From NCBI GenBank assembly GCA_951394045.1, contig OX595985.1, forward strand, positions 4,712,001 through 4,776,000: 64,000 bases of DNA. The letters run 5' to 3'. Position numbers and translations under genes: made by a program. How positions within the stretch are numbered: the stretch's first letter is position 1; each line of letters starts with the position of its first letter. The notes beneath the pieces are model-generated. The model saw only the letters and a program-made list of their open reading frames with translations. It ran no database searches and was not told where the DNA came from. Positions 8,482 through 30,545 of the stretch are shown one piece after another. The stretch comes from Nitzschia sp. DOCU1. Its lineage: Eukaryota > Bacillariophyta > Bacillariophyceae > Bacillariales > Bacillariaceae.

Positions 8482-9100
8482 TGCTAATATCACGTATGGC
8501 TGGGTCAATGGTCATAAATATTTTCGTAGCGCATCGTAGGCGCAGTACAAAAGGGGGAAAGTCGTGCGCGCGCGCACGCAGAAACTTCGCGACAAAACAC
8601 TTCATTTCACTAGACCATGGCGGAAACTTGTTGATTAGTATGAAGTAAGTCCGATTCTAGGCCATGCTGCCAATATCTTTTTTATAGCAAATTTCTCACG
8701 CTTTCCGAAAATGTCCATATAATGGCCTAGAACTTATTATTTCGAAAGATAGTATTTTGTGGTGTATTCATGCATGAGTTTGGCAGCTAGAGTCAAACGA
8801 TTCGAATTTGGTAATTAGAGTCAAAATATCACCATGGTACACTTTTTACGAGGCCTACGGAAACAACGGTCATCGCTGAACAAGCCATAGAAGTAGTGTG
8901 ACGAGAAACGGGAGATTACTAAATAATGGCATTATTCTGTGATGTGTGGTTTCGAGTGGCGCACCGGGCAATCGGCATTGGGCGCGCCAACGGATGATAA
9001 CGGTGAGATATTGGCGGGCCCGCGCGCGTGTGAGTCCAACGGATGTAAACGGTGCGCGGGAAATGGTGGGCATATGTGCTGGATACTGGTAGCATTAGCA
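8482..9100 (-). repeat. copia-2 3' LTR, interrupted by a MITE
   Basis: Two blocks, 8482-8496 and 8890-9100, together match all 226 bp of the other LTR (19221-19446) with three substitutions. The gap between them is the MITE. The last five bases, TAGCA (9096-9100), were duplicated when copia-1 inserted exactly at the border between internal region and 3' LTR. Confidence 0.93.
8497..8887. mobile_element. 391-bp MITE, TA target duplication
   Basis: The insertion is defined exactly by comparing the two copia-2 LTRs: TA at 8495-8496 and 8888-8889 flank it and the uninterrupted LTR has TA once. The ends form an imperfect inverted repeat: TGGCTGGGTCA at the left, TGGCTTGTTCA on the opposite strand at the right (9 of 11). 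TA duplication and short size fit a non-autonomous Tc1/mariner-like element. It contains no coding capacity. It is younger than copia-2. Confidence 0.75.
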
Positions 9101-9293
9101 TGCTAAAGTCAAACGGAAGTGAAAGACACAGAGATGATGAGCAATCTAATTTATGAGTAGATTGCGAGTGTTTTGAATGTGGCGGGAAATCCCGTTTGAG
9201 TTTGGCGCGCTCGGCGCACAACGGATCTTTGTGACTGGCCGGTGCTCGCTGGAAAGGATGCCGGCATGCCTGACGTGGCATGTGGAATCAACA
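9101..9293 (-). repeat. copia-1 3' LTR
   Basis: 193 bp, identical to 14198-14390. On the minus strand it starts TGTTGATTCC and ends GACTTTAGCA. The first bases supply the pol stop codon: TGTTGA gives Cys-stop at 9293-9288. The preceding internal sequence TGCGAGGGTG, also found at the end of copia-2, is the probable polypurine tract and overlaps the last codons. Confidence 0.95.
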
Positions 9294-12200
9294 CACCCTC
9301 GCAGTGAGCATTGGCAGTCGTCGACGATGCTGGAGGAGTGCAAAGATAAGCGATGGATGACCGCTGTTGGGGTCATTTGCAAGGTATTGCGGACGCATTT
9401 TCTGGTGGTGTGCGGCCGAATGGTGCTTGGTGAAGTAGTCGGCAAGATTCGTTGTTCCGGGAGCCCATTTGACAATAAACTGTTGTTGGGTGATGCGGTC
9501 ACGGATCCAGTGGTATCGCATGTCGATGGCGCGGGAACGTTGTTGTTTGATGGTGTCGTTGGCAATACCGGCGGCGGTGGAATTATCGGTGGTAACTGGG
9601 GTGGCGGGCTGTGGGTGTCCCATTTCGTGGAGAGTTGTGTGCAGGATTGTGCCCTCTTTCATGTTGACGAAGAGGCCCCCCGTTTCGGCTTCGGCGGCGG
9701 AGGATGCTACGTGGCGGAGGATGCCGGTGGGGTTCAATATTGCTCCATTGTTGATTGGCGGTTTGGGCGGCTGATTGTCCAAGTAAAAGTGACCGCCCAC
9801 TCGGCTGCGTCCCTGGCCCGCATTTAAGTAGCCGGCGTCGCTGTGGATTGCAAGGATCATGTCGCTGGCGTAGTATTTTAATATGGCGTCCGGGTGCGTG
9901 GCACAGTAGTCCAAGAGGCGGTGGATATCGGCGTTGGTGGTCTCGGTGGCTCGGCTTTGGTCGGAGGCCAGTTCGCTGAGTGCGACGAGCGTGGTGTTGT
10001 CAACGGCCCGGCCGTAGTATAGCAGTGTGCCGACAATCTTTTGAATGCGGAGTCTGCCGTCAGGGCTCAATTGCGGTGCCGTATCAATTGGGTCGGTGAG
10101 TTGCACTTTGACACCGAATTGGGGGGCATTGAAGCGGTGGGGTGAATGTTGTGGTCGGCTTGGCATCGGATGGTTGTACTTGGCCAGTGTTGCAGCAATG
10201 TAGCCCGGCATGCTGAGTTCCACGGTACGTTTTTCATAGTCCCATTTGAGGGAAATCCCGCAGAAAAGTGCAGCATCCCAATCGGTACTCACGCCTTCAT
10301 AGTATTTTTTCAGAATGCTGAGCAGGTGATCTGCATGCTCTTTGCCCACATATTTGATCGCGAAGTCGTCAACAACCAACACGAAGCTGATTGGTCGGAA
10401 TGAATGGAGCCAAAGGCCAGGAGTGTGGCGGGCAGTGTAGTACCCGTATTTGGCGAGGCGTCGTTGGAGCAAATCATTGGCAAGTTTTCCAGACTGGGGC
10501 AAGCCATACATGCCCTTTTCAATGCGGACATAAATAAATCCGTTGTGCACGAGAGGTAAGAGCCTGTATTCCTCGATGATTTCGTGGGGGACCAAATCGA
10601 TTGCTATTCTCATGAATTCTGGCCTGTCCAGTGGTGTATTCAGGTAGAAATTTTTCACATCGGCGCAGACGCATTTGGCATTGGGAGTTGACAATACGCT
10701 GTTGAAGTGGAGCTTGGCGGTGGTAATGTCGGCAGTGGGAGCGCTCGTGTCGCCAGGATAGTCGATAAGGTTGCCGCCGACGGTTAGCCGTGTGCGCTCA
10801 GGTTCTGATTTCTGGGGTCGCAAGGTGCAGACAAACCGGGCGTAGGTGACGGTGCGGTCCTTTGGGACGTCCTGTTTGGCAATGAATTTGATAGTGTCAG
10901 TGCCAGCAACGCGCCCTCCTACTCCTTGGGCAAGTCTGCCAAATTCGTTGGCGGCGGATTTGCTCCAGACGGCGGTCGTGGCTGGATTCGTGATGAGTTC
11001 ACGATATTCCATGCTTTTGCCGGTGATAGGGTCGATGACGGAGTTGGCAAAATAATAATCAACCGGGTGCGTGGGTGGTGGGGCAAGGAACAGATCCGAT
11101 AGTGGCGCCTCTGGGATGGCCTGGGACAGTATGATGGCGGCTTTGTGAGCAGCTTCGATCAAATTCGGGGTCACCCTCGGAGCATGGGGCGGCGTGTGGG
11201 GGCTGTCTTCGACGACGTGCGGGGTCACCCTCGGAGCAGCTGGCGTCATGGATGGATCGGTGGCAAGGCCAAAGATTCGGGCTAGTTGCTGGATTCCTCG
11301 CATGGTTTCCTCACCGTAGAGGAATGGAGTCGCTGGATGAGGATGTTCGATGGCGTGTATGAGGTCGCGAGCAGCATGTGTGGCGGCATCTGCAGATGAG
11401 AGCGCCGGCATTTTTATTGCCGTCGGGAAAAATTCGACGGTATCGTTGATCCTGGTCGCCTGGGTTTTGGGGATGAAGACACGGTAGCACCGGTAATGGT
11501 TCATTGCGGGGCCAACATACCATCCGAGATCGCCGTGGGTGCCCCAGGATGGGCGTTTGTCCGATTTGTTGTGGGCCACGACCCGGATGCCTGGTGGAGC
11601 CATTGGAGTGCGGTTGAAGTTAAAATTTCCATGGAGCTGGGCGTGGGAAGAGAGGCGCGGATTGATTCTTGATTGACGCAACAAATTGAGGCTGATTGTG
11701 GCCTGGTCAATAAGTTCGTCCCACAAGTACAGTGGAAAGTTCGGATCGGTTGTGCAAAGGCCTGCCATAAAGTGGTTTTTGAAAGTGCGGATGGCACGTT
11801 CGGCAGCATTGCGGCGATGGATGCCTGGGGGTGCGAGTTGGAAATCCACATTCTCTTGGGCCATAAGATTTTTTAGGATGGTGCTGGCCTCATTGTCCAA
11901 GCGTTGTAAGCGGGGGCGTAGGCCTCGAGTTACCGGGAGACCATGCAGCTTTTTGTATGCGCGAAGGATTTCTTTGGCCGTGCGATCGGATATTGGTTCG
12001 GCTAAAATCGCGTTGCTATCATAGTCATAGAGGACCATGATGTATTTTTTGCCTGTGTGCGATTGGACAGGGAAGCGGCCGGTTTGATCAGTGTGGATAG
12101 CGCCTGTGGGGACTGAGGAGACTTTTTCGATGGCGGCGTAGATGTGATTGGTACGGGTACCATCTGTGATAGCCGGTGTGGGAGTAAAGTCGTCGTCGTC

Positions 12201-12944
12201 CGATGTGGTACTACTAGTAGGTTGGTGCGCAACTCTGGTGCTCTGGATGTTTTTGCGTTGTTGGTCCAGGTGGCCTAACGCTGTTGCGATGGATTTAGGC
12301 AAGTGCCGCTTGACATTATCGGAGGTCAGCGCAGGCCAAGTAGTAAAGTGGTTGTTGTTGATTGCCTTGAGTAATGTAGAAACCGAGGGAGAAAACAAAC
12401 TTGCGTGTAGAAATTGCATGATCTCACTTGTAGTGCTGGTAGGAAGCACTAAGTTGGCAACTGGGGTAGGCATAGTTGACAGGGGAAGCCGGTAGAGGCC
12501 ATTGTTGTCACGGTAGCCCTGGTACAGGTGCTCGCCGTGGTCGCTGGCAATATGGCAGTGTTTTGCATCGAAGGTGATGGTACAGCCAGCATCTGCAATG
12601 ACGCCGACTGAAAGGAGGTCGTGTGTGTCCATACTGGGGAACAAATGTGCATTGCAAGCTGTGGCAGGTAGTTTTGGAAGATTAATTGTTCCGGTATGGC
12701 TCGAGTGCATTGTTTCACCAGTGGCAGTGTGGACAGAGAGACTGGGGTTGGTACGAGGGTGAACGGGCTTGATGTTAATGCAGCACTTTGTGATAACACG
12801 GGCAAAGTGTTTGGAGGCGCCGGAGTCAAGAGCTGGATCATTAGGATCTGGAGTTGAAGTATCAATGGGTTGCAGACTAGAATACAAATTAAGTTGAGCA
12901 CTAGGATTAGTGTTTAATGTTGCATTATTCGTCGACCCAAAGAG
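9288..12944 (-). CDS. pol: copia-1 pol polyprotein
   Basis: Open frame of 1,218 codons directly after the gag UGA; no good pol start of its own, so a gag-pol fusion is expected. Domains in order: retropepsin (LDSGASKHF near the N-terminus), a degenerate GAG-pre-integrase part (GHLDQQRK), integrase catalytic Asp (HTDQTGRF), Asp (RLDNEAS) and Glu (NAAERAIRTF). RT follows with motif A Asp in CADVKNFYLNTP and the FVLVVDDFAIKY box, then RNase H (HSDAGY, SSAAEAETG, DNSTAAGI). The C-terminus MLTARVC ends on a stop lying inside the 3' LTR. All key residues are present. The lineage resembles heterokont and fungal-type copia proteins with the RLTVGGNLIDYPGD signature. Confidence 0.95.
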   Translation of the reverse strand, partial: LFGSTNNATLNTNPSAQLNLYSSLQPIDTSTPDPNDPALDSGASKHFARVITKCCINIKPVHPRTNPSLSVHTATGETMHSSHTGTINLPKLPATACNAHLFPSMDTHDLLSVGVIADAGCTITFDAKHCHIASDHGEHLYQGYRDNNGLYRLPLSTMPTPVANLVLPTSTTSEIMQFLHASLFSPSVSTLLKAINNNHFTTWPALTSDNVKRHLPKSIATALGHLDQQRKNIQSTRVAHQPTSSTTSDDDDFTPTPAITDGTRTNHIYAAIEKVSSVPTGAIHTDQTGRFPVQSHTGKKYIMVLYDYDSNAILAEPISDRTAKEILRAYKKLHGLPVTRGLRPRLQRLDNEASTILKNLMAQENVDFQLAPPGIHRRNAAERAIRTFKNHFMAGLCTTDPNFPLYLWDELIDQATISLNLLRQSRINPRLSSHAQLHGNFNFNRTPMAPPGIRVVAHNKSDKRPSWGTHGDLGWYVGPAMNHYRCYRVFIPKTQATRINDTVEFFPTAIKMPALSSADAATHAARDLIHAIEHPHPATPFLYGEETMRGIQQLARIFGLATDPSMTPAAPRVTPHVVEDSPHTPPHAPRVTPNLIEAAHKAAIILSQAIPEAPLSDLFLAPPPTHPVDYYFANSVIDPITGKSMEYRELITNPATTAVWSKSAANEFGRLAQGVGGRVAGTDTIKFIAKQDVPKDRTVTYARFVCTLRPQKSEPERTRLTVGGNLIDYPGDTSAPTADITTAKLHFNSVLSTPNAKCVCADVKNFYLNTPLDRPEFMRIAIDLVPHEIIEEYRLLPLVHNGFIYVRIEKGMYGLPQSGKLANDLLQRRLAKYGYYTARHTPGLWLHSFRPISFVLVVDDFAIKYVGKEHADHLLSILKKYYEGVSTDWDAALFCGISLKWDYEKRTVELSMPGYIAATLAKYNHPMPSRPQHSPHRFNAPQFGVKVQLTDPIDTAPQLSPDGRLRIQKIVGTLLYYGRAVDNTTLVALSELASDQSRATETTNADIHRLLDYCATHPDAILKYYASDMILAIHSDAGYLNAGQGRSRVGGHFYLDNQPPKPPINNGAILNPTGILRHVASSAAEAETGGLFVNMKEGTILHTTLHEMGHPQPATPVTTDNSTAAGIANDTIKQQRSRAIDMRYHWIRDRITQQQFIVKWAPGTTNLADYFTKHHSAAHHQKMRPQYLANDPNSGHPSLIFALLQHRRRLPMLTARVC

Positions 12945-12947
12945 TCA
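12942..12947 (-). promoter_or_regulatory. copia-1 gag-pol UGA, candidate readthrough
   Basis: Context AAA TGA CTC TTT on the minus strand; pol is in frame and open on the far side, with no other stop. The UGA-CU start of the context matches that of copia-0, though the third base of CUA is changed to C. Readthrough is inferred from the shared layout in three elements. Confidence 0.5.
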
Positions 12948-14123
12948 TTTCTTGAGGCGCCATTTTCCATGTTGGCAGCCGCCTTTGTTGTCTTCCAGGG
13001 TGGCTTCTTTGATATGGCCAGTGGCAGTGCGTGTGCATTGAGAGCCATTGTGGCCACCATAACCGTGGGTCCAACAGTATTGGGCAACGAAGGGTGCTCG
13101 TGGTGCTCGGGCAGCGGGACCAGCGGTGGTCCGTTTGGCATCGTCGAGGGCTTTGCGTAGGCGTGCAATTTCTTCGTCCTTCTGGGCCAGCTGTGTTGTG
13201 AGGTTGGTGGTGTTTTCAACTAGTGCTGCGAATGCTTGGCGGTCGGAGGCTGTGGCCGTGGCCAGGTTGGCCAAGGCTTCTACTGTCGCGTTTTCCTGGT
13301 CGGCAATGGCCACGTTGATGAAACCTGCGCGGCCGGTAGTGGTTTGTTGGAGGCGGAGGGAGCGTTGGGCGTCCAAGAAGTGGAGCTTGAAGTTATCCCA
13401 TGTTTGTTCAGCGGTGGGTCTGGCAAGCCACCTTTTGCAATCATCAAAGTACAGACCGGTTGCCCAAACGGAACTGTAGGCAGAGGTCAGGATGTGGCTG
13501 TCGCTGATTGGGGCATTGCCGTCGGCTGCAAATTCTACGCAGGTTTCGACACTGTCAATAAGTGTCTCGAAGGGGCTGTTGCCGTCCCAAGGCTGATCCA
13601 AGAGCTTGCGGTTCTCCGCAAGGGCCTGCAGGGTGATTTGGCCATAACTGGTGAAAAGGAACTCAAGGAGATCGCGGAGCTTGACATTTTGGTACCCAAG
13701 ATTGCGGTCGATTTTGGCGCGAAGGTACAGGGGCTCGATAGCGCCTACAAGTTGCTTTTTGAGAGCGGCATGGACATTGAGGTATGTGTACCACTTTCGG
13801 AGGAGCACTTTGTGGCGGCGTTCTAGGGCGGCGAGCTGTTCGTCAGTGGCATTGCGTGGGATAGTGGGTGTGTCACCGGGATTGGTGGGAGGGGTAAACC
13901 CATTGTTGGCGCCGGCAAGTGCTGTGTAGACGGTGTCAGAGAGGATGAGGCCAAGATAGCCGTGTTGGCCGCCACCTGCGGTGGTCGGCACGGATGCGGC
14001 ATTCATCTTGAGGGATTCACGGAGCCCTTGCAAGGTGGCGTAGGTCGGCTGGCCGACGATTTTCTCGACGGTACATGGAAAGGATTTGTCCATGTCGTCA
14101 ATGGATAGGACGGTAGTCGTCAT
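12945..14123 (-). CDS. gag: copia-1 gag
   Basis: 392 residues from the ATG at 14123. Mostly alpha-helical capsid-type sequence, then a short coiled coil (QLAQKDEEIARLRKALDD), and a C-terminal zinc-finger-like motif CWTHGYGGHNGSQC followed by GH (Cys-x2-His, His-x4-Cys spacing) that stands where a CCHC knuckle is expected. It ends in AAA UGA, followed without interruption by pol in the same frame. The start lies 62 nt after the putative primer-binding site. Confidence 0.92.
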   Translation of the reverse strand: MTTTVLSIDDMDKSFPCTVEKIVGQPTYATLQGLRESLKMNAASVPTTAGGGQHGYLGLILSDTVYTALAGANNGFTPPTNPGDTPTIPRNATDEQLAALERRHKVLLRKWYTYLNVHAALKKQLVGAIEPLYLRAKIDRNLGYQNVKLRDLLEFLFTSYGQITLQALAENRKLLDQPWDGNSPFETLIDSVETCVEFAADGNAPISDSHILTSAYSSVWATGLYFDDCKRWLARPTAEQTWDNFKLHFLDAQRSLRLQQTTTGRAGFINVAIADQENATVEALANLATATASDRQAFAALVENTTNLTTQLAQKDEEIARLRKALDDAKRTTAGPAARAPRAPFVAQYCWTHGYGGHNGSQCTRTATGHIKEATLEDNKGGCQHGKWRLKK

Positions 14124-14184
14124 CGTAGGAGCTGCGACAAGGAGTGCTGTTGGTGGAGTAACAGCAATGTCGGCAGGTCTGAAG

Positions 14185-14248
14185 AATTAGATTGCTCTGC
14201 TAAAGTCAAACGGAAGTGAAAGACACAGAGATGATGAGCAATCTAATT
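14185..14248 (-). promoter_or_regulatory. copia-1 self-complementary PBS/LTR pair
   Basis: AATTAGATTGCTC at 14185-14197, directly abutting the 5' LTR end, is the exact complement of GAGCAATCTAATT at 14236-14248 inside the LTR (13 of 13, 38-nt spacer). In RNA sense the upstream copy is in the LTR and the second sits where a tRNA PBS should be. Such an arrangement is known from Tf1, where the 5' end of the transcript primes its own reverse transcription. No tRNA-like PBS is visible here. The transcript would start near 14248 if the analogy holds. Confidence 0.7.
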
Positions 14249-14390
14249 TATGAGTAGATTGCGAGTGTTTTGAATGTGGCGGGAAATCCCGTTTGAGTTT
14301 GGCGCGCTCGGCGCACAACGGATCTTTGTGACTGGCCGGTGCTCGCTGGAAAGGATGCCGGCATGCCTGACGTGGCATGTGGAATCAACA
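14198..14390 (-). repeat. copia-1 5' LTR
   Basis: 193 bp, identical to 9101-9293; minus-strand ends TGTTGATTCC and GACTTTAGCA. It contains a further perfect 8-bp hairpin (GCAATCTA at 14238-14245 with TAGATTGC at 14255-14262) overlapping the element complementary to the PBS. The copia-2 pol frame accidentally runs about 48 codons into this LTR before a stop at 14248. Confidence 0.95.
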
Positions 14391-17300
14391 TAGCACACCC
14401 TCGCAGCACATCTGCCGCCGGCTCGGAGGGAAAATTTTGAATTTTTGTCGACGATTGTAAATGAAGAACATATTCCGAGCGGACTTGTTGATGATGGGAG
14501 GGCGGGAAATGTTTGGTGAAGTAGTCGGCTTTGTTATACTTTGCAGGAGCCCAATGGAATTTGAATTGCTGTTGGGCCTCGCGATCGCGTAGCCAATGGT
14601 AACGCATATCCATGGCACGAGTGCGCTTTTGCTTAATGCTGCTCGTAATGAAACCGTGTGCGGTGGTGTTATCAAGCAGGACCGGGGTGGGTGGTTGCGG
14701 ATACCCCATCTCTTGAAGTGTGATTCGGAGTGGCAGTGCTTCCCGACAGTTGATGAAGGCAGCTCCAGTTTCAGCTTCGGCAGCACTGGATGCGACATGA
14801 CGGATGATTGTCGTCGGGTTAAGAATTGCTCCGTTCGGCTTGGCAGCTAGGGGGTCGAGAGTGTCAGTGAGGAAGTGATGTCCACCACTGCGGCTGCGGG
14901 CCCCTGGTTCATTGTGATAGCCGGCATCGCTGTGTGTGTGCAGGATCATGGCGGAAGCTCGATATTCCAGGGCCGCATCTGGATTTGTTGCACAATAATC
15001 CAGCAGTTGGTGGATTTTGGACTTTGTGTGCGTGGATGGCTTATTTTGTTCGGAGGATAAGGAGCTCAGAGCCACCAACAGGGTGGAGTCCACGGCGCGC
15101 CCGTAGTACATCAATTTTCCGATGATGTGTGGAACGATTTTGCTGTCGGCAGGGGGCAGTGGCACGAATGGGATCTCTTCGGGCAGGATTTGACTGTCAG
15201 CCCCAAATTTGGGAGGGTTGTGCGGATGTGGCGAAAACTGTGGCTTGCTTGGAAGGGAGTGGCTGAGTTCTTTGAGCATGGTGGCAATATACTTGGGCAT
15301 GGACAGGCGAGCAGTGCGTTTGATGTAGTCCCAGGCTACACTGATGCCACAGAATAGTGAAGCAGTCCAATCAACTTTAATGTCATAGTGCCCTTTGAGA
15401 ATTGTAAGTAGCTCGTTGGCATCCCCTTTGTTGACATATTTCACAGCAAAGTCGTCCACAACTAACACGAATGATAGTTGTTTTGTATCGTGTCGCCACA
15501 GACCTGGGGTATAGCGGCAGGGGCGGTATCCATGGGGGGCGAGGCGTCGTTGCAGTAAATCATTTGCAAGTTTACCGGCTTGTGGAAGTCCGTACATGCC
15601 TTTGTTGATGCGCATGTGAATGTAGCCGGCATCATCCGCCAGGGCGGCGAGCTTGTATTCTTGGATGATTTCTGGCGGGATCAAGGAGATGTGCAGCTTC
15701 ATGAATTCGGGACGGTCAAGTGGGGTGTTCAAGTAGAAATTGCTGATGGCCAGGGACATCATTTTTGCGTTGGGAGTGGACAGTACGTCATTCACATGGA
15801 GTTTGAACGTTGTCAAGTCAGCAGTCGGTGAGCTGACATCACCGGGGTAATCAATAAGATTCCCACCAACGGTGAGCCGTGTGCGTTCCACCTCTTCTTT
15901 CTGCGGTCGTCGCTCACACACAAATCGCCCATATGTGACGCGGCGGCCTGCAGGGACCTCGGATCTTGGAATAAAATTGATGGTGTCGGTACCTCGAATT
16001 CTGCCACCGACTCCTTGGGCCAGCCGGCCAAATTCGTTGGCAGAGGATCGGAGCCATGCCTCCTTATAGTTTGGATGCTGGATGAGTTGGCGGTATTCCA
16101 GATTGCGGCCAGTGTCTGTATCGAAAACGGCATTGGCTAGTGCCGGCGTGGTCTGCACCCTCGTAGCTGGCGCAGAGGATTTTGGAACGGGGATGGACAT
16201 GGGCGGTGTGCGCGGTGGCAACAGTTGGTTGATCACCCTTGGAGCCATAGGCCTGATTGCTAGGCGGTCCTGTCGGCGTCGTGGCGGGGTGACGGGCACA
16301 GGGCCTGGACTGGGGACCGTAGCAGGCGCAGTGGTGGCTGGTTGTTGTGCCAGGGTGAAGATGTCCGCCAGGCGTTGGAGTTCAGAATTGAGACGTTGTG
16401 TGGGCGGCAGGAAAGGGGCAGCTGGATGGGGATTTTGCAGGGCCTTGGCAAGTTCAGTGGCGGCCCGTGCAGCCAAGTCAGCAGACGATAGTTGTGGCAT
16501 CTGAAAATCATGGGGCAAGAATTCTGCGGTTTCGGCAACACGTTGGCGGCCGGTGGCATGGGAGACAGTGGTGTAGCAGCGGTAGTGGTTCATGGCCGGG
16601 CCAACATACCATGCAACTTCGCCATGGGGCGCCCACGATCCACGTTGGTCCGGAGTGTTGAATATAATTGTTTTGCATCCCGGGGGCGCCAAAGGGGTGC
16701 GGTTGAAGTCGAAGTTACCGTACAGCTGTGCATAGGCGGAGAGCCTGGGATTGAGACGCGATTGTCGGAGTAGGTTCAAGCTCGTTTCGGATTGGGGCAG
16801 GAGCTGGCACCAGAATCGAATTGGAAAGGATGGGTCCAGGGCACTGAGTCCTGCAATGAAATGATTTTTCCAAGTCCGAATGGCCCGTTCGGCAGCGTTG
16901 CGGCGATGGATGCTGCTGGGAGTGAGTTGGAAATCAATTTGTTGTTGCTGCAAGAAAGTTTTGAAAGCCCCACTGGCTTCGTTGTCAAGGCGTTGGAATT
17001 TTGGCCGCAGTCCGGCCACTACAAGGCGCTGGTGCAATTTTGCGTATGCTCGGAGCAATTCAGTGGCGCCTCAGCTGGTTATACCCTCCACCAGGATTGA
17101 ATTACTGTCGTAGTCATATAAGACCATAACCGCTTTGACACCACGGCTAGATACTTGTGGAAAGTAGCCGGTTTGGTCGGAGAATATGCGTCCTGTAGGA
17201 AGATCGGTGACAGCGAGGACAACATCATTGGTGTGTAGTCCGTCGGTAATTGGTGGTGTTGGGGGGCCCTCGGTGGGCTGTACTGGAGGAGTCTCCCCTG

Positions 17301-17967
17301 TGGGCCGCGTGTTTTGCCGTTGCTGGTCCATGTGGCCCATAATCGTGGCTGGTTGCAGTGTCAGATGGCGCCGTACCGTTTGAGTGTTGAAAGCTGGCCA
17401 GCCAACAAAGTGGTTGTTGGCCAAGGCTTGCAGTAAGGTGGACTTGGTGGGCGAGAACAGTGTTCGATGCAGGAACCGTACGATCTGGCTTGTGGTGCTA
17501 TCGTGGATGGAATAGTTCATTTGCGGCTGCATAGTGGGTTGTGGGAGTGGAAGTGTCCACAGTCCATTGGAATGGCGGGTGCCACGGATGGCTTGGCGTT
17601 GCGGATGGCTGATATTGACACTTGTGGCATCGAAGGTGGCAGTGTAGCCGACATCGCAGAGTTTTCCAATGGCAACAAGGGAATTTTGCAAATTTGGCAG
17701 GATGTGTCCAGTACGTGCTGTCACAGGGATATCGGGAAATGGGAGTGTTGCTGTGTGTGAGGAGGTTAACTCGGCACCGTTGGGCATGGCAATGTGGACA
17801 GGAAAGGTGGCAGGTTGCGGGTCGCTAACATTGGCGGTGGTGGTAAAAAAATGATCCGTGGCACCCGTGTCAGCAAAGGCGAGGGATGATGGAGGTGGAA
17901 AGGGCTGCAGACATGGAGTATAATTCATATTGCTATGATTAATACTATGCTTAGTCGGCCCAATTCC
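14391..17967 (-). pseudogene. pol: copia-2 pol, inactivated
   Basis: In frame with copia-2 gag after a UGA at 17970-17968. Protease (FADTGATDHF) and the first integrase Asp (FSDQTGYF) precede a premature UGA at 17073-17071, where copia-1 has a sense codon; after it the same frame is open to the insertion point of copia-1. Integrase Asp (RLDNEASG) and Glu (NAAERAIRTW), RT box FVLVVDDFAVKY and RNase H (HSDAGY, SSAAEAETG, DNTTAHGF) remain. RT motif A reads LAISNFYL where copia-1 has ADVKNFYL: the catalytic Asp is Ala (codon 15748-15750). Two lesions make this copy non-autonomous. The last codons were displaced by copia-1; originally the frame ran into its own LTR. Confidence 0.88.
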
Positions 17968-17970
17968 TCA
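17965..17970 (-). promoter_or_regulatory. copia-2 gag-pol UGA, candidate readthrough
   Basis: GCC TGA GGA ATT on the minus strand between in-frame gag and pol. The 3' context differs from the CU-starting context of copia-0 and copia-1, so either other signals matter or this dead copy has drifted. Confidence 0.4.
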
Positions 17971-19149
17971 GGCGGCCACGGGCTTGCCCTCCTGGTTACC
18001 TCCTTTGTTGTCCAATCGTGTCGCAGTGGCATCGTGGCCAGGCTTGGGTAGGCGGCATGTAGCACTACTGTGGCGGCGATCCACCAAGTAGCCATGGGAC
18101 CAGCAGTAGGATCCTTGGTCACGACGGGGCCCAGCCGGCTTGTTGCGGGAGCGATTGTTTTTCTTCAGGGCCTTGACTTCTTCTGCCAGCGCCTGCAATT
18201 GTTCGAGGATGGTGGCATTGGCCATGGCTTGGTTGGCTTGGGCCATGGCATTTTCATCATTGGGAGCCGGTGCCACCCAGGCTGCTGGAAGCTTGGGTGC
18301 AATGTTGTGGGCCATCCAGGCCCCAGGGACGGTGGTTGACATATTGTGGGCTGTGAGTTTCCCAGTATTGCTCTTTTGGTAGCGTAAGACAAGGGGTTGG
18401 AAGTGGGTGACAAATTTCTTCCAGGTGTCACGGGTTTCGGCAGTTTTGTTGGTCCACTTGTCGATGGCAGTTTCCAAGACACCAGTTTGTTCGAGGGCAG
18501 CCAGGCCAGCACTGATCAATGCCTTGTCATCAATGGGCACACCACCATCGGCGGCATAAGAGGTAATGGTCCGAAACCGGTCCACAAGGACCTGAAATGG
18601 TTCGGATGCCGAATAGGGAGTGTGTAGTTTGGCCCGGTTGGCCTCGACTTCCGTGGGGGTGATGGCCCCGTACCCAGCAATGAGATCCTGTAGAAGTTTT
18701 TTCGTGGTGACGCCCATCAGACCTGTGTCATCATCCTCGTAGGGGCGCATGAAGAGTGGTTCAATGCTTTCACTGATGAACCGGAGAAGGGCCTCGTTCA
18801 GGTTGGAGAACTCTTTGAATTCTCTAAGAGCCTCGGCATACTGTCGGTTGGCTTCGCTGATTTGCGGGCCCGTCATGCCCTCGACATCGGGTGCATCGGG
18901 CGAGACGGGATCAACCCAAGCGGTGTCGCTAAGGGTGGCGTAACTTGTAGCAGGCATTACCATACCCAGGTGTCCATGTGCCGCCCCACCCCGGGTGGAG
19001 TGGAACTTGGACGCATTGCGGTAGACCAGTTGGCGGAGAACTCGGAGATCTTCGTATGTTGGTTGGCCTTCGATGCGGACAGGGCGCGCAGGGAATGCGG
19101 TGTAGAACTCATCCTCAGACTGCGCTTTGAGCGTTGTAGTGGATGACAT
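17968..19149 (-). CDS. gag: copia-2 gag
   Basis: 393 residues from the ATG at 19149 (MSSTTTLKAQSEDEF); the frame is open slightly upstream from a TTG at 19170 but this ATG is the natural start. Helical capsid-like sequence, an Ala/Gln-rich coiled region, a basic stretch (KKNNRSRNKPAGPRRDQ) and a C-terminal Cys/His motif (CWSHGYLVDRRHSSATC, then GH) like that of copia-1. Ends VAA UGA GGA; pol continues in the same frame. Confidence 0.9.
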   Translation of the reverse strand: MSSTTTLKAQSEDEFYTAFPARPVRIEGQPTYEDLRVLRQLVYRNASKFHSTRGGAAHGHLGMVMPATSYATLSDTAWVDPVSPDAPDVEGMTGPQISEANRQYAEALREFKEFSNLNEALLRFISESIEPLFMRPYEDDDTGLMGVTTKKLLQDLIAGYGAITPTEVEANRAKLHTPYSASEPFQVLVDRFRTITSYAADGGVPIDDKALISAGLAALEQTGVLETAIDKWTNKTAETRDTWKKFVTHFQPLVLRYQKSNTGKLTAHNMSTTVPGAWMAHNIAPKLPAAWVAPAPNDENAMAQANQAMANATILEQLQALAEEVKALKKNNRSRNKPAGPRRDQGSYCWSHGYLVDRRHSSATCRLPKPGHDATATRLDNKGGNQEGKPVAA

Positions 19150-19209
19150 GGTCGTAAGCGTACCTTGCAACGGAGACGGGATCTCGGGACGTTTGGAAAC
19201 AAGGGATCC

Positions 19210-19268
19210 TTAGTAATCTCTGCTAATATCACGTAGAAGTAGTGTGACGAGAAACGGGAGATTACTAA
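19210..19268 (-). promoter_or_regulatory. copia-2 self-complementary PBS/LTR pair
   Basis: TTAGTAATCTC at 19210-19220, immediately after the 5' LTR, is the exact complement of GAGATTACTAA at 19258-19268 inside the LTR (11 of 11, 37-nt spacer). Position, spacing and length closely parallel copia-1 although the sequences are unrelated. Tf1 self-priming also uses 11 nt. Predicted transcript start is near 19268, giving an R-U5 of about 48 nt. Confidence 0.7.
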
Positions 19269-19446
19269 ATAATGGCATTATTCTGTGATGTGTGGTTTCG
19301 AGTGGCGCGCCGGGCAATCGGCATTGGGCGCGCCAACGGATGATAACGGTGAGATATTGGCGGGCCCGCGCGCGTGTGAGTCCAACCGATGTAAACGGTG
19401 CGCGGGAAATGGCGGGCATATGTGCTGGATACTGGTAGCATTAGCA
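19221..19446 (-). repeat. copia-2 5' LTR
   Basis: 226 bp; minus strand starts TGCTAATGC and ends GATATTAGCA. Same sequence as the 3' LTR apart from three substitutions and the MITE. It ends 53 bp before the ATG of the left-arm transposase, so the LTR now sits in that gene's promoter or 5' UTR. Confidence 0.95.
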
Positions 19447-19499
19447 TCATCGTCGATCGGCAATGGCCTCGAGCAGTCATTGTCATTTCACTATCGACC
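19447..19499 (+). other. left-arm transposase 5' UTR and TSD
   Basis: Contains the right copy of the copia-2 target duplication TCATC (19447-19451) followed by the sequence leading to the transposase ATG. The identical right-arm stretch is 26572-26624. No TATA box is evident in these 53 bases. Confidence 0.6.
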
Positions 19500-22400
19500 A
19501 TGGCCTCGAACAATAGTGGGTGGGACAAAGTAGCTAAAGGCCTCTTGCCACCAGTGGTCCAGTGCTTACGCGATGTGGCCCAAGATTTCCCACGGTTAAA
19601 CCAAAGGGGCAGACTTGTGGTGCTGCCAAAAGGCAGAAATGGGCGCAATGTTGTAGGAACTGCTGCCAGAAAGGCAATGAGCGATGACCAATGCAGTGCC
19701 CTTGACGAGTTGAGCATCAACAATTGGATTAAAAGAAACCTTCCGAATTCTCCCATCTACTACTTGCCTTCAGCAGAGTCACTTGCGGAAGCAAGAATCA
19801 CTCAAGGAGGATACCAGCAGGAGTATATGGACCAAGCAGCGGCATGCTTTCGAATTCCAGATGAAACAAAAGTATTATTCATTGGACCTGAGTACACCTT
19901 CCGGCGCCAGCTGTGGAAAGATGAGAAATGGGCCCTATTTGATGATCAAGGGAATACTACTGGAATAGCACCGCCTTGCCCCTGGTGCTCAAGTAACAAA
20001 AGCATTAAATTTCAATGCTTTGAGGTCTCCAATAAGGACACAATGCCTCGAGCAATTTGCAATTTGGGCAACACTCGCACTTTTCTCTTTGGAGTACGGT
20101 ATGACTGCATCAGTACTGCTTGTGTTGGGCGCCTGCCTAAGGTGGACAAAGAAAAAGAATGGAATGGTGCAGTAGAGCAGGCTTCGTCCCACTCATTTGT
20201 ATCATGGAATCCAAGACTGCTCAAAATGCTCCCAAAAGAACAGCAGAGAGTATACTTGGAGTATGCATCCGGATTATTTATTGAAGATGATGCATTGGAG
20301 CTACCGTCTGAACCACAGACTCTTCCATCCCCGGCCCTAGCCTTGCAACTTCTTGATAACTCTCGGCCTTGGTCTAAGATAGAAAGCAACTTGCAGGAAC
20401 AATATGATCTTGTCGTTGAGACCTGTGTTGCCAGTTATCAACGCTTTGTAAGATCTCACAAGCCTCCCACAAAACGACTAGTCCAGACTACTTTGACAGG
20501 TGGGAGCTTGGTCATGCAGAACCAAGAACGAGCTGTTACTACCTGGCCCATGTTTCAAAGGGACAAGTTTGCAGTTGAGTTTGCCCCCCCCCAAAATCAA
20601 AGCGATCCAGACCATGTTCTGGTGTTGCTTTCTACAAATTGAGAAGTATCTGGACCGCGATTTGTTCTCCCGGGTACCAGGCCGTATCATTCGTTGGGAC
20701 GGTACCTATGAAGCCGCCAAAAAGATAATTGGTTCCATCGATGGCATCGATGATGTGGGCGTGCTTTTAATTCTATTTGGCGAGTATGGGGATATCGTTT
20801 CCTATGGTTTTGCCCCAAGCGAGGGCCCAAAATATTTACAAGCACTCCACTACAACTTGCGAAAGCGAGTCCAGAGGAAAGGCTACAAGGAATTGATGGA
20901 CGTCAAGTGGGGATATGACGACCTCGGTAGCGCTAACTACCGAGATGCACGGAATCACTGGTTTGCAAAGATTTGGCCAAATGCAAAGAGAGGTCCCTAC
21001 AAGGACATAATGCATGGAGTGCAGCTTGTTTCAAAATCAACACATGGGTCGTCTCACCCATTTCATCAGATCTTCTCCCAGAAGCTGACAGGCGTTCTGT
21101 TGGAATTTGATGAAGAAAGTATCCAGGCAGCAGCTACTGAATATTTGGCTGAGTGCAACGGTGCAGTTACCATGGAGGTGGCAGTGGAAACTGTCAAGAC
21201 AACCGAACGATGGAAAAAGAAGATGTACAATGGTACTCCTTCTATTTCAACTCAGGTAGAATGCGCCGAGAAACTGAGGAGTCAGGCAATGGAGGAAGAC
21301 AAGAAATACCGGGCCGAGGGATGGCCTCCATATTTCAAAAAGTCCACGCCCACATCAAGAGGCACACTTGAGCAATTTGAGTTTTTGATTGATCATATTA
21401 AGCGTGGCGACTACCAAGACCCTTTGAAGTCTACCCTCATGTCCTTCCCTAAGCGGAAAGCGTATGCACAGAATGTTCAGGCCCCAAAGAAGCAAAAACG
21501 GAACTCGCTCGATGATTTGGGTCGCCTTCGTGGAACCAACAGTGGAGAGTCCTCTAATAAACAAGTAAACCGCAGCGTGCAGAATGCTTCACGACTTCAC
21601 ATGCGGACAGTAGAAGCAAGAGTCAAACTTCAAGTACATGACCATAACCTTAAGAAAGACTTCAATTTTGGTGGCATGACTGGTCGTTGGGCAAAGAACA
21701 AAGTCTGGATGCTTCGGGAAGGCAACGATGAAGACGCCGAGTCGATTCCAAACTACAACAAAGACGGGTCAATGAAGGCAGCATATCCTCCAAAAGAGTT
21801 CCAGAAAGAACCAATTGGAATTGAATTTTTAAGCTACCAGGAGTATCTGAGTGAGCGGGACCGTACATTTTTGGATACCATGGACGCCAGCAACAATACA
21901 AGGAAACCACTAGTAGAGATGGACCCTCAAGACGAAGATGCCTTCTTTGATGCCTGCGAGGAGCCAGTCGAGCCAGTCGTGGCAGAGTTGCCCCCTGATG
22001 AATTACCAGTAAACGAAGAGGATGCGAGCAATACAGGTGCAAATGTGGTGCAGCTGTCATCACCAACAAAGGAGACAAGGAGGTGCAACTTGACAAAAGA
22101 GGTGGCGACACCACCTCCAAATACTTATAGTAGTCCTGGTCGCTGTGTGTGGAATCGGAAAGAATCCAATCAAGGGCTCCTCTCTCCCACTCGTATGACC
22201 CTTTCCCTACCACTGACACCAGACCAGCAGAAGATTTGTTCCAAGCTACTGGCGGAAATCGCAAATGAGGGGAGCCCGGAAAGCAACCAATATTCAAGAA
22301 GTCTAGCAAAGGCACTACATCTGAAGTGGAATGGATTGCACTTCCTTGAGTCGCTTCAGTCCGGCAAGGGCATTGGTGGCACCATGACTCTAGATCATGC

Positions 22401-22755
22401 CAACCAAATTGTCAACACAATACTCAATGTTCAAGTCCTTGATCGGATGGGTGGACAAAGGTTACAAATTGTGAAGCCTACCGAAATTGCAGCAAGACCG
22501 ACCAGCAGTGGAGCAGAGCCCAAGAAGCGAGCAACCCTTGCATCGACTGTACTTTCTCTTAGTCAAATTCGGGAAGAAGATATTCGCAATCCTTCCACAT
22601 TTGGGTCTAGACGCCTGTACAAACACTTGAAAGAGTATTCAAGTCACTACAATACTTCAGCATCCTTCCCACGGGATGTGGATGGACGACGGCGAGCTCT
22701 GCTAGAGCTAGTGCAAAAATTGAAAAGCTCTACCACCACCACTAGTAATAGATAA
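19500..22755 (+). CDS. transposase-like protein, left arm (frameshifted)
   Basis: ATG at 19500 (MASNNSGWDK). The first frame ends at 20642; the remaining protein is in the +1 frame from a run of nine C (20584-20592) to 22755. Skipping one C gives 1,084 residues. Seen: a Cys cluster CPWC near residue 160 with further Cys at about 173, 203 and 208 (zinc-ribbon-like), a DGTYEAAKK motif like DHTFTTVKN of the transposase at 52081-54160, then YDD and a conserved D-x2-H (PYKDIMHG). The C-terminal third is low-complexity and acidic, with Ser/Thr-rich ends. I infer a DDE-type transposase of an uncharacterised superfamily (similar to DUF6729-type proteins, from memory). The same frameshift is present in the right arm, so it is either programmed, ancestral, or a shared homopolymer error. 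Confidence 0.65.
20584..20592 (+). other. C9 run at +1 frame change
   Basis: The frame change in the left-arm gene falls on this run: GCC CCC CCC C AAA ATC. Eight C would restore one ORF. The right arm has GG followed by eight C, keeping the same total length and the same frame change. Confidence 0.8.
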
Positions 22756-22935
22756 GTTTCTCTCTAGCTGGTCATTCCACTAGCCTAATTGGAGAGAGTA
22801 CTCTGAACCGCACCTTCTAGAAGTCAGTAGTAGAGGAGGCGAAGCTCGTTGTATTTTGAAGCTAAGATAGTACGGCGTATCAAAGGGAGGACTACGGTCC
22901 CCCTTTTTGTGTCGCAGCATCGCGGGAAATAACAC
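22756..22935. other. transposase 3' UTR, left arm inner end
   Basis: After the stop, 180 bp of non-coding sequence ends GGGAAATAACAC at the gap. The right arm starts with its exact reverse complement at 23136, so the assembly stops at the same base on both sides. Confidence 0.8.
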
Positions 22936-23135: not shown

Positions 23136-23315
23136 GTGTTATTTCCCGCGATGCTGCGACACAAAAAGGGGGACCGTAGTCCTCCCTTTGATACGCCGTA
23201 CTATCTTAGCTTCAAAATACAACGAGCTTCGCCTCCTCTACTACTGACTTCTAGAAGGTGCGGTTCAGAGTACTCTCTCCAATTAGGCTAGTGGAATGAC
23301 CAGCTAGAGAGAAAC

Positions 23316-26300
23316 TTATCTATTACTAGTGGTGGTGGTAGAGCTTTTCAATTTTTGCACTAGCTCTAGCAGAGCTCGCCGTCGTCCATCCACATCCCGT
23401 GGGAAGGATGCTGAAGTATTGTAGTGACTTGAATACTCTTTCAAGTGTTTGTACAGGCGTCTAGACCCAAATGTGGAAGGATTGCGAATATCTTCTTCCC
23501 GAATTTGACTAAGAGAAAGTACAGTCGATGCAAGGGTTGCACGCTTCTTGGGCTCTGCTCCACTGCTGGTCGGTCTTGCTGCAATTTCAGTAGGCTTCAC
23601 AATTTGTAACCTTTGTCCACCCATCCGATCAAGGACTTGAACATTGAGTATTGTGTTGACAATTTGGTTGGCATGATCTAGAGTCATGGTGCCACCAATG
23701 CCCTTGCCGGACTGAAGCGACTCAAGGAAGTGCAATCCATTCCACTTCAGATGTAGTGCCTTTGCTAGACTTCTTGAATATTGGTTGCTTTCCGGGCTCC
23801 CCTCATTTGCGATTTCCGCCAGTAGCTTGGAACAAATCTTCTGCTGGTCTGGTGTCAGTGGTAGGGAAAGGGTCATACGAGTGGGAGAGAGGAGCCCTTG
23901 ATTGGATTCTTTCCGATTCCACACACAGCGACCAGGACTACTATAAGTATTTGGAGGTGGTGTCGCCACCTCTTTTGTCAAGTTGCACCTCCTTGTCTCC
24001 TTTGTTGGTGATGACAGCTGCACCACATTTGCACCTGTATTGCTCGCATCCTCTTCGTTTACTGGTAATTCATCAGGGGGCAACTCTGCCACGACTGGCT
24101 CGACTGGCTCCTCGCAGGCATCAAAGAAGGCATCTTCGTCTTGAGGGTCCATCTCTACTAGTGGTTTCCTTGTATTGTTGCTGGCGTCCATGGTATCCAA
24201 AAATGTACGGTCCCGCTCACTCAGATACTCCTGGTAGCTTAAAAATTCAATTCCAATTGGTTCTTTCTGGAACTCTTTTGGAGGATATGCTGCCTTCATT
24301 GACCCGTCTTTGTTGTAGTTTGGAATCGACTCGGCGTCTTCATCGTTGCCTTCCCGAAGCATCCAGACTTTGTTCTTTGCCCAACGACCAGTCATGCCAC
24401 CAAAATTGAAGTCTTTCTTAAGGTTATGGTCATGTACTTGAAGTTTGACTCTTGCTTCTACTGTCCGCATGTGAAGTCGTGAAGCATTCTGCACGCTGCG
24501 GTTTACTTGTTTATTAGAGGACTCTCCACTGTTGGTTCCACGAAGGCGACCCAAATCATCGAGCGAGTTCCGTTTTTGCTTCTTTGGGGCCTGAACATTC
24601 TGTGCATACGCTTTCCGCTTAGGGAAGGACATGAGGGTAGACTTCAAAGGGTCTTGGTAGTCGCCACGCTTAATATGATCAATCAAAAACTCAAATTGCT
24701 CAAGTGTGCCTCTTGATGTGGGCGTGGACTTTTTGAAATATGGAGGCCATCCCTCGGCCCGGTATTTCTTGTCTTCCTCCATTGCCTGACTCCTCAGTTT
24801 CTCGGCGCATTCTACCTGAGTTGAAATAGAAGGAGTACCATTGTACATCTTCTTTTTCCATCGTTCGGTTGTCTTGACAGTTTCCACTGCCACCTCCATG
24901 GTAACTGCACCGTTGCACTCAGCCAAATATTCAGTAGCTGCTGCCTGGATACTTTCTTCATCAAATTCCAACAGAACGCCTGTCAGCTTCTGGGAGAAGA
25001 TCTGATGAAATGGGTGAGACGACCCATGTGTTGATTTTGAAACAAGCTGCACTCCATGCATTATGTCCTTGTAGGGACCTCTCTTTGCATTTGGCCAAAT
25101 CTTTGCAAACCAGTGATTCCGTGCATCTCGGTAGTTAGCGCTACCGAGGTCGTCATATCCCCACTTGACGTCCATCAATTCCTTGTAGCCTTTCCTCTGG
25201 ACTCGCTTTCGCAAGTTGTAGTGGAGTGCTTGTAAATATTTTGGGCCCTCGCTTGGGGCGAAACCATAGGAAACGATATCCCCATACTCGCCAAATAGAA
25301 TTAGAAGCACGCCCACATCATCGATGCCATCGATGGAACCAATTATCTTTTTGGCGGCTTCATAGGTACCGTCCCAACGAATGATACGGCCTGGTACCCG
25401 GGAGAACAAATCGCGGTCCAGATACTTCTCAATTTGTAGAAAGCAACACCAGAACATGGTCTGGATCGCTTTGATTTTGGGGGGGGCCAAACTCAACTGC
25501 AAACTTGTCCCTTTGAAACATGGGCCAGGTAGTAACAGCTCGTTCTTGGTTCTGCATGACCAAGCTCCCACCTGTCAAAGTAGTCTGGACTAGTCGTTTT
25601 GTGGGAGGCTTGTGAGATCTTACAAAGCGTTGATAACTGGCAACACAGGTCTCAACGACAAGATCATATTGTTCCTGCAAGTTGCTTTCTATCTTAGACC
25701 AAGGCCGAGAGTTATCAAGAAGTTGCAAGGCTAGGGCCGGGGATGGAAGAGTCTGTGGTTCAGACGGTAGCTCCAATGCATCATCTTCAATAAATAATCC
25801 GGATGCATACTCCAAGTATACTCTCTGCTGTTCTTTTGGGAGCATTTTGAGCAGTCTTGGATTCCATGATACAAATGAGTGGGACGAAGCCTGCTCTACT
25901 GCACCATTCCATTCTTTTTCTTTGTCCACCTTAGGCAGGCGCCCAACACAAGCAGTACTGATGCAGTCATACCGTACTCCAAAGAGAAAAGTGCGAGTGT
26001 TGCCCAAATTGCAAATTGCTCGAGGCATTGTGTCCTTATTGGAGACCTCAAAGCATTGAAATTTAATGCTTTTGTTACTTGAGCACCAGGGGCAAGGCGG
26101 TGCTATTCCAGTAGTATTCCCTTGATCATCAAATAGGGCCCATTTCTCATCTTTCCACAGCTGGCGCCGGAAGGTGTACTCAGGTCCAATGAATAATACT
26201 TTTGTTTCATCTGGAATTCGAAAGCATGCCGCTGCTTGGTCCATATACTCCTGCTGGTATCCTCCTTGAGTGATTCTTGCTTCCGCAAGTGACTCTGCTG

Positions 26301-26571
26301 AAGGCAAGTAGTAGATGGGAGAATTCGGAAGGTTTCTTTTAATCCAATTGTTGATGCTCAACTCGTCAAGGGCACTGCATTGGTCATCGCTCATTGCCTT
26401 TCTGGCAGCAGTTCCTACAACATTGCGCCCATTTCTGCCTTTTGGCAGCACCACAAGTCTGCCCCTTTGGTTTAACCGTGGGAAATCTTGGGCCACATCG
26501 CGTAAGCACTGGACCACTGGTGGCAAGAGGCCTTTAGCTACTTTGTCCCACCCACTATTGTTCGAGGCCAT
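23316..26571 (-). CDS. transposase-like protein, right arm (frameshifted)
   Basis: Mirror copy of the left-arm gene: ATG at 26571, first frame to 25429, second frame to 23316, frame change at 25479-25488. The only coding difference I noticed around the run is Gly for Ala before PPQ/PPK. Unlike the left copy its upstream region is intact (26572-26916) and includes the arm end, so this copy shows the native promoter side. An upstream in-frame extension to 26781 has no comparable start in the mirror gene after insertion, so the ATG at 26571 is preferred. Confidence 0.65.
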
Positions 26572-26916
26572 GGTCGATAGTGAAATGACAATGACTGCTC
26601 GAGGCCATTGCCGATCGACGATGATAACAAAAATAATAGACGGAAATGTCACACTTCCGCGGCAGAAGAGCTCGCGGGAAAATCCCTCTTTTGGTGGACA
26701 GCAGCTTCCCCCAAGTTGTGACCGCCACGCAATTCGCGTATCACTGAGTAGTTGTGTACAGGCGAATTTTGTATCCACCAATCAATGAGCTCGATTGGGA
26801 GGCGAAAAATGTATCCACCAATAGGAAAGCGTATCCCGCGCTTGTGTAGAAATAATTAAGGTCTTCGTAGAGAAATGTACCGGAGCCTCTTAATCAGAAG
26901 GGTGCATCTCGCTGTG
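26572..26916 (-). repeat. right arm outer end with empty copia-2 site
   Basis: Contains the single TCATC (as GATGA, 26620-26624) that was duplicated on the left side by copia-2, and the terminal CATCTCGCTGTG followed by AGTC. It is the reference for the pre-insertion state. Confidence 0.85.
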
Positions 26917-29109: not shown

Positions 29110-30545
29110 AAATTTTGCTAGGCATCATAGCTAGACCCTAGCGACAGTTGCGGGTCAATAGCTCTATGGCTTTCCATGCTAGTTACCGTACAGTAACATC
29201 ATTGTTTGCGGAATTCCATTTGACGCTGCTTGACGTATTGCTAGTGGGGATTAGAGCAATACCTGAAAAGATATGGCCATTTCTGTAATGCCAAAACGAG
29301 GAGGGTTGCTAAACTCAACTCCAGTCGAAGGTCGATAACTCTACTGCTATTTATGTTAGAGAGTGTGCCGTAGCATCATCGTTCAGGACATTAAATTTAG
29401 CGTTGTTTGATGTATTGCTATTGGCGAGAGGATCAATCGCCGTAGAGATATGACCGTGGCTGTAGAACCAATCGCGCAAAGTAGCTAACTTTTGCGACAC
29501 TCGCCGGTCGATATCTTTATGAATATCCGTACTAGAGACTATGAAGTAGCATCATTGTTCGAGACAATGAAATTGGCGTTGATTGACGTATTGTCAGTGG
29601 AAATTAGATCAGTTCCTGTAGAAATATAGCCGATGTCCTGGGACCAAAACGTGCAAGGGAGCTTCTTCAGGGACAGTTGTGGGTCTCTATCTCTACGACT
29701 ATCCATGCTAGCGACTATAGAGTAGCATCACCTTTTGTAACATGTAATGCGGCGTAGATTGATGTATTGTCAGTGGAGAATTGAGCAGTGACCGCAGAGA
29801 TATAAGCGTCACTGTAGATCCAACCTGTTCAAGGTAGCCAAACTTCAGCGACACTCGCCAGCCGATATCTTTACAAATATTCATACTAGAGACTATGAAG
29901 TAGCATCATCATTCAGAGAATTCAATTTGACGTTGATTGATGTATTGTTAGTGGCAAGAAAAGCGACGGACGTAGAGATATGGCCGTCGTTGTAAGGCAA
30001 ACCCTGCAAGGTAGCTAGCTTCAGCGACATTCGCCAGTCAATATCTTTACGAATATCCATACTAGAGACTATAACGTAGCTTCACTGTTCGAGGAATTGA
30101 ATTTGGCGTTGTTTGACGTATTGCTAGTGGGAATAAGAGCAAAACCCGGAGAGATATGGTTGATGCTCCAGATTCAAAAAGGGGAGAGGTAGCCAAACTC
30201 TGCTGCAGTCGCGGGTCGATATCTCTACGGCTATTTATGATAGAGACCGTGAAGTAGTATTGTCATTCAGAGAATTCCATTTGACGTTGATTGATGTATT
30301 GTTAGTGGCAAGACAAGCGACGGACGCAGAGATATGGCCGTCGTTGTAAGGCAAACCCTGCAAGGTAGCAAGCTTCAGCGACATTCGCCAGTCGATATCT
30401 TTACGAATATCCATACTAGAGACTATAACGTAGCATCATCATTCGCGAAATTGAATTTGGCGTTGTTTGACGTATTGCTAGTGGAGATGTGGGCCACGCC
30501 CGTGGAGATATGGCTGTTGCTCTAGAGCCAAAAAGAGCAAGGTAG
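29110..30545 (+). repeat. satellite array, 176-178-bp period
   Basis: Eight diverged units. The anchor ATTGnTAGTGG (with variants) occurs at 29238, 29414, 29590, 29766, 29944, 30120, 30298 and 30474, giving spacings of 176 or 178 bp. Units starting at 29944 and 30298 are much more alike than neighbours (both with GCGACGGACG and GTTGTAAGGCAAACCC), indicating a 354-bp dimeric higher-order repeat at the right side. No ORF runs through it. Confidence 0.85.

Follow-up and report, generated by a model that had tools for sequence, protein, structure and literature searches.

The retrotransposon Tf1 primes reverse transcription with the first 11 nt of its own RNA, cut by RNase H (PMC7175516), and this primer sits in a three-duplex structure (PMC10085805). 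Self-priming is described for Tf1/sushi elements of the Ty3/gypsy type, and it has been predicted for the TAR lineage of plant Ty1/copia elements (Houba, Osr-1; PMC6317226); that prediction contradicts the first-pass annotation of the present locus, which did not know self-priming as a recognized mode for copia elements. In the GalEa copia elements of fungi, a Conserved Hairpin Site replaces the primer binding site (PBS), and the authors of that work found no complementary sequence in the long terminal repeat (LTR) (PMC5445492). The CoDi elements of the diatoms Phaeodactylum and Thalassiosira (CoDiI, CoDiII, CoDi6), for which accessions such as EU432484, EU432486, EU432490, EU432495 and EU432499 appear in PMC3587641, fall by their reverse transcriptase (RT) into three groups, two of them specific to diatoms and the third near Copia; a word search of the main text of that paper returned no primer binding site, tRNA or self-priming (PMC2806351). 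Among openly licensed PMC papers, we found no report of self-priming in diatom copia elements, for which the present work supplies strong comparative evidence.

In copia elements of the diatom Nitzschia sp. DOCU1, as in the accounts of Tf1, Tf2 and the Tf1/sushi group, the PBS is the exact complement of a stretch of the LTR where the RNA is presumed to begin. As in Tf1, the PBS directly follows the CA of the LTR, and the pairing in the first of two groups of families (clade 1) spans 11–13 nt, near the 11 nt of Tf1. Unlike Tf1 as described, these elements place integrase before RT, and a few nucleotides may precede the paired arm in their RNA. A further duplex like that of the Tf1 'pretzel' was not seen when the loop was compared with the 25 nt after the PBS (within the shuffle range in 9/9 lineages). 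The elements resemble the TAR lineage, beside which we set them by description only, in being Ty1/copia with a predicted self-primer; they differ in the diatom host and in covariation over many lineages with controls from the same genome. Like GalEa, they are copia elements without a tRNA-type PBS; unlike GalEa, they carry an exact LTR complement. With the CoDi elements they have in common the diatom host and the three-way RT division described above, and clade 1 is possibly CoDiII and clade 2 CoDiI, as matched by description. Given the Tf1 and TAR precedents and the lack of a diatom report in the papers searched, the kind of priming is a known one, and what is new is its well-replicated setting.

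The analysis started from a window of 64,000 nt (C1:4712001-4776000) in an assembly of 52 Mb and 63 contigs. Within it, the element copia-1 lies on the minus strand between two 193-bp LTRs with TG...CA ends (5' LTR, 14198..14390; 3' LTR, 9101..9293), flanked by the 5-bp target duplication TAGCA at 9096..9100 and 14391..14395; the same LTR occurs in loci L009-L012. Its gag frame (413 aa, 12948..14186) is followed by a pol frame (1218 aa, 9288..12944) that encodes integrase, RT and RNase H in this order. The element had been described as intact with identical LTRs. The LTRs indeed show 0 differences; the intactness needs the qualification that gag and pol form one frame split by an in-frame TGA (12945..12947), a layout common to related families. 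The PBS, GAGCAATCTAATT (14185..14197), immediately adjoins the 5' LTR and is 100% complementary over 13 nt to the arm AATTAGATTGCTC (14236..14248) inside that LTR, 38 nt away, just as the first-pass annotation had noticed. LTR comparison places the second copy of the arm at 9139..9151 in the 3' LTR. Complementarity begins exactly at the first nucleotide past the terminal CA of the LTR, and the longest match from this nucleotide is 13 nt, against at most 10 nt when the final 150 nt of the LTR were shuffled 3000 times with dinucleotide counts preserved.

An integrase downstream of RNase H, a trait of Tf1/sushi elements in Ty3/gypsy, was sought and is absent from copia-1 and its relatives. Integrase precedes RT, and they are therefore not Ty3/gypsy. 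The segment of copia-1 before the RT, in a structure model with a mean pLDDT of 70, matches retroviral integrases (best E 1.9e-7); PDB sequence searches gave no match. In the relative P0041, rve (residues 246-334; 27.9 bits, under the cut-off of 32.6) lies upstream of RVT_2 (671-902). RVT_2 (PF07727) matches copia-1 with just 14.5 bits, under the cut-off of 31.6, and the neighboring copia B with 37.1 bits; 28 of the 31 members of alignment A2 match it at E 0.01, and the first member holds no RT. LTRs with TG...CA ends and 5-bp duplications are present in copia-1 and in 11 of 12 copies compared, the exception being L023, whose 3' LTR is cut. By domain order, RVT_2 matches, LTR ends and duplications, copia-1 and its relatives belong to the LTR retrotransposons of the Ty1/copia type.

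The self-pairing is not peculiar to copia-1 and is present in copia B and at every LTR/PBS junction found in the clade to which both belong. Copia-1 is nested in copia B at the border between B's 3' LTR and interior. Also on the minus strand, copia B retains a 5' LTR (19221..19446, its length taken from comparison with L018), a 3' LTR remnant whose outer end is cut off (8888..9100), a gag frame (17971..19209) followed by an in-frame TGA (17968..17970), and pol (14396..17967) with one more in-frame stop. Its 11-nt PBS, GAGATTACTAA (19210..19220), and 11-nt arm, TTAGTAATCTC (19258..19268), 37 nt from the PBS, have the layout of copia-1 in a different sequence, the first hint of covariation.

The RT region of copia-1 as query, with scores for 58 of 182 candidates, gave at least 59 matches across the genome. 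LTR/PBS junctions taken from the window and from fetched copies gave 32 rows, four of them overlapping fetches, and thus 28 distinct junctions in nine lineages (A 7, B 8, C 1, D 3, E 3, F 3, G 1, H 1, I 1). All 28 pair exactly with their own LTR from the first PBS nucleotide, over 11 nt in B, 12 nt in F and H, and 13 nt in A, C, D, E, G and I, with 18–38 nt between arm and PBS. The nine lineages carry seven distinct PBS sequences. PBS positions 1, 4, 5, 6, 7, 8 and 9 vary and each change is compensated in the arm, so that 11 positions in nine lineages (99 cells) contain 0 mismatches or G.U pairs; at position 12 there are three kinds of Watson-Crick pair and one G.T, and B, F and H have no pair at position 13. 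In the sister lineages A and I, whose LTRs are 80% identical over 105 nt, a single PBS position differs together with its partner. Compensation in related copies was a test set in advance by the first-pass annotation, and it is complete in 28/28 junctions.

Each clade-1 PBS matches its own LTR over 11–13 nt versus at most 7 nt in LTRs of lineages with another PBS, and in every lineage 0 of 3000 shuffled LTRs reach the observed match. This cross-lineage table and the shuffles rule out chance complementarity. Ten fetched clade-1 loci have no junction in their own orientation, and none of them has a PBS without a complement. Five show a 3' LTR match only (L013, L014, L020, L022, L025); L022 carries one of the 28 junctions on its opposite strand. 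In L021 the leader is present from 34 nt past the junction and the PBS is absent, and L033, L034, L037 and L040 gave no match. These ten loci are neither counterexamples nor support. Outside this genome, the viral contigs searched contained no relative, and the genome contigs searched gave a single fragment. This clade-1 copia pol fragment (49%) is present in L054, a contig filed as Gammaproteobacteria MAG Bco_10 and probably eukaryotic contamination of the bacterial bin; scanning it revealed no LTR/PBS hairpin.

A distant copia clade, clade 2, with RT ~21% identical to that of lineage A, had been considered as a negative control. An initial scan that allowed at most 90 nt between the arms gave no complement there; a check of the whole LTR then yielded an exact complement of 14 nt, and the clade was rejected as a control. 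The three clade-2 families resolved by an LTR pair all self-pair exactly, over 14, 14 and 16 nt, with 106–127 nt between arm and PBS, and in each 0 of 3000 shuffles reach the observed match. The clade contains more families than these three. The arm of F1665 is AT-rich and close to its own reverse complement. The 14-mer of the F1780 arm has 18 copies in the genome (reversed-pattern control, 1). By position, these copies make up six elements, each with an arm, a PBS 132 nt on and a 3' arm, and the word does not occur outside the six.

Controls were resampled outside both clades once clade 2 proved to be self-pairing. Nine further families were taken, three of which were resolved by an LTR pair at once and four more from upstream DNA, leaving F1404 and F1809. 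In five copia families outside both clades, the run of complementarity from the first PBS nucleotide is just 3–7 nt; four are plainly at chance, and the 7 nt of F1471 are equalled by 84 of 3000 shuffles. F1432 and F1471 have different LTRs and one common PBS. By the position of L093-L099, F1404 shares it too, its PBS being known only through these copies near its RT matches. A 14-mer complementary to this PBS has 92 genome copies (reversed-pattern control, 0), of which 81 precede a copia RT and have the correct orientation. Among the eight sites fetched from the other 11, one proved to be a tRNA-Met(CAT) gene. The F1432 PBS shares a 16-nt run with an internal piece of that tRNA-Met, and the F1548 PBS a 12-nt run with its 3' end plus CCA. 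The tRNA-type PBSs are thus visible where they are present. Other copia elements of the same genome appear, by sequence match, to use tRNA-Met as primer. Their PBS is common to several families, the opposite of what is found in clades 1 and 2, and none of ten self-type PBSs shares a 6-nt run with tRNA-Met.

Two of the control families have PBS regions of other kinds. In F1871, a 12-nt palindrome, TACCGATCGGTA, directly follows the LTR (L072:987-998; C5:579886-579897) and has no LTR complement; it is reminiscent of the GalEa Conserved Hairpin Site as described (PMC5445492). The F1381 PBS, GGTTGTGCAGCCC (L081:908-920; C1:4909907-4909919), matches neither its own LTR nor the tRNA-Met found.

A tRNA matching the PBS was another finding that the first-pass annotation had named as refuting self-priming. 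Genome-wide, one was sought with the A/D, B and F1780 arms as search patterns. The A/D arm 11-mer, as a priming tRNA would carry it, has 39 genome copies (18 + 21; reversed pattern, 11), of which 30 lie by position in or beside A/D elements; ARAGORN finds 0 tRNAs at the nine remaining sites, all of which were fetched. By the pattern searches, a tRNA primer was rejected for the A/D and F1780 arms. For the lineage B arm it is unlikely as far as these searches reach; they cover the first 100 of its 109 places, and DNA was fetched from five. An RF00005 scan, in which 63 of 1655 candidates were scored, gave an incomplete set of tRNAs. Contigs C62 and C63 are rich in tRNAs and C62 also carries COX1 and ATP6; the two are accordingly taken as mitochondrion and plastid. 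The closest named matches of the ATP6 protein, at 93% identity, are Nitzschia proteins, and unnamed ones reach 96%, which places the host as a diatom near Nitzschia. A tandem repeat of ~1.5 kb in L109-L113 (C6, C15, C10, C1, C17) contains the lineage B arm and then gtaatattagca, close to B's LTR end; it yielded no tRNA and no Rfam match.

Self-priming of the Tf1 type in divergent diatom copia elements is the best explanation of why the pairing is exact, of its register and its covariation between lineages, and of its absence from five other copia families, and we regard it as highly probable. For copia-1 itself, for which the first-pass annotation had proposed it, the mechanism is well supported by the complete covariation and by the lack of tRNAs at arm-word sites outside elements. 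We infer the transcript start, the cleavage of the primer and its copying as follows. Transcription would begin in the LTR, at the arm or just before it, and the first 11–17 nt of the RNA would fold back onto the PBS that adjoins the LTR. The RNase H of the element would cut after the arm, leaving as primer a short RNA with its 3' end directly against the last nucleotide of the LTR; pairing from the first nucleotide past the LTR sets the 3' end of the arm where the 3' end of a primer must be. RT would extend the primer through 18–38 nt (clade 1) or 106–127 nt (clade 2) to the cut; in lineage E this would give minus strong-stop DNA of only 18 nt. Fold predictions for the 5' RNA put the pair probability of arm and PBS at 0.90–0.99 in 9/9 clade-1 lineages.

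Elements primed by tRNA regenerate their PBS by copying the primer, and copying of the self-primer would follow from the same step. The primer would later be copied as the PBS of the new element. Any change in the LTR would thereby pass to the PBS, and this would account for the maintenance of an exact Watson-Crick match.

The A of a CA(T) motif lies 16–17 nt upstream of the 3' end of the arm in 9/9 clade-1 lineages and 15–16 nt from it in 3/3 clade-2 families. The distance thus stays at 15–17 nt in 12/12 families, while the distance from arm to LTR end spans 18–127 nt. A fixed distance from start to cut would give such constant spacing, and the motif is suggestive of an RNA 5' end at or near the arm. 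In copia-1, the A of the CAT motif is at 14251 on the minus strand, 16 nt from the 3' end of the arm, and is the likely transcript start, 3 nt upstream of the 14248 expected by the first-pass annotation. The motif was picked after the sequences had been seen and lacks the preceding pyrimidine in lineage H, and Thalassiosira seems, in the account of an oomycete study, to be without the oomycete INR+FPR promoter block (PMC3599244); for these reasons, the start site is one that we infer.

A helix between arm and PBS is predicted in 9/9 lineages, and structural stems beside the PBS are known in retroviruses, so the complementarity might serve as an RNA hairpin for dimerization, packaging, translation control or closing of the PBS, with something else as the primer. 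Yet a plain stem need not begin at the first nucleotide past the LTR, as 28/28 junctions do, nor need it avoid G.U pairs in 99/99 cells. The CA(T) motif keeps its 15–17 nt from the 3' end of the arm over loop lengths of 18–127 nt, and the families that match tRNA-Met are without the complement. These features make a purely structural role improbable. That the primer is a host tRNA, a tRNA piece or another small RNA, and the LTR copy incidental or a decoy, draws on the tRNA-Met-type PBSs of other copia families in the genome, on the incomplete tRNA inventory and on the tandem repeat bearing the lineage B arm. It would demand seven primers for the seven PBSs of one clade and a copy of each in the LTR that matches it. 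Outside elements, the A/D arm word occurs at nine sites with 0 tRNAs, the F1780 word is confined to six elements, and 0/10 self-type PBSs match tRNA-Met over 6 nt; we consider a host primer very unlikely.

The same sequence data fit a primer that derives from the element and acts in trans, either as the 5' piece of another genomic RNA or as a short promoter-proximal LTR RNA. The 3' LTR also has an arm, and in clade 2 the arms lie 106–127 nt from the PBS, both of which would suit such a primer. In clade 1, however, the arm is near the PBS and the predicted fold is strong, and the available precedent, Tf1, folds back on itself (PMC7175516), which leaves priming in trans with a very small probability.

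In an unrooted RT tree of ten self-type, three tRNA-type and four other rows, a single branch has all ten self-type rows on the same side (support 96/95; recovered in 96% of 200 bootstrap trees). F1548, counted among the others and recognized as tRNA-type afterwards, leaves the split unchanged. Since the tree is unrooted, it is compatible with a single origin of either self-priming or tRNA priming. We tentatively suggest, as a reading that is plausible though short of probable, that self-priming is an old standing mode of two deep diatom copia lineages, perhaps CoDiI and CoDiII, that it is independent of Tf1, that at least three primer systems coexist in one genome and that every cycle renews the PBS from the LTR. 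On the same tentative reading, a self-primer, an internal tRNA-Met piece, the tRNA-Met 3' end and perhaps a palindrome type would operate side by side. If so, LTR and PBS would drift together, and new families would escape dependence on host tRNAs. Self-priming could even predate tRNA priming in the copia superfamily; the elements bear on whether tRNA priming is ancestral in copia. CoDi elements of diatoms are already the subject of stress studies, and those of Phaeodactylum respond to stress. The same genome supplies tRNA-type sisters as controls, which makes for an easy test. The PBS also matters for annotation. An LTRdigest filter, as described, keeps only LTR elements with a PBS (PMC7466962), and pipelines with such a filter, if they seek the PBS in a list of tRNAs, would drop the self-type families.

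Gag and pol lie in one frame parted by a stop in both elements of the window (12945-12947 and 17968-17970) and in L009-L012, L015-L018, L024, L026-L028, L060, L062, L064 and L074. The stop is TGA in copia B and in 13 of 15 clade-1 copies checked (families A–F; L019 and L023 are broken there). It is also TGA in F1404, F1432 and F1471, and TAG in F1381. The bases after it, tggtgtggggcaacg, are the same in families C, D and E. This arrangement suggests that diatom copia elements recode Gag-Pol by stop-codon readthrough.

Two further repeats are present in the window. Beside copia B, 19446-22935 and 23136-26625 are the two arms of a 3.5-kb inverted repeat; the arms are 99.9% identical and both contain open frames. 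The stretch 29128-30549 holds repeats arranged head-to-tail whose copies are ~68–75% alike.
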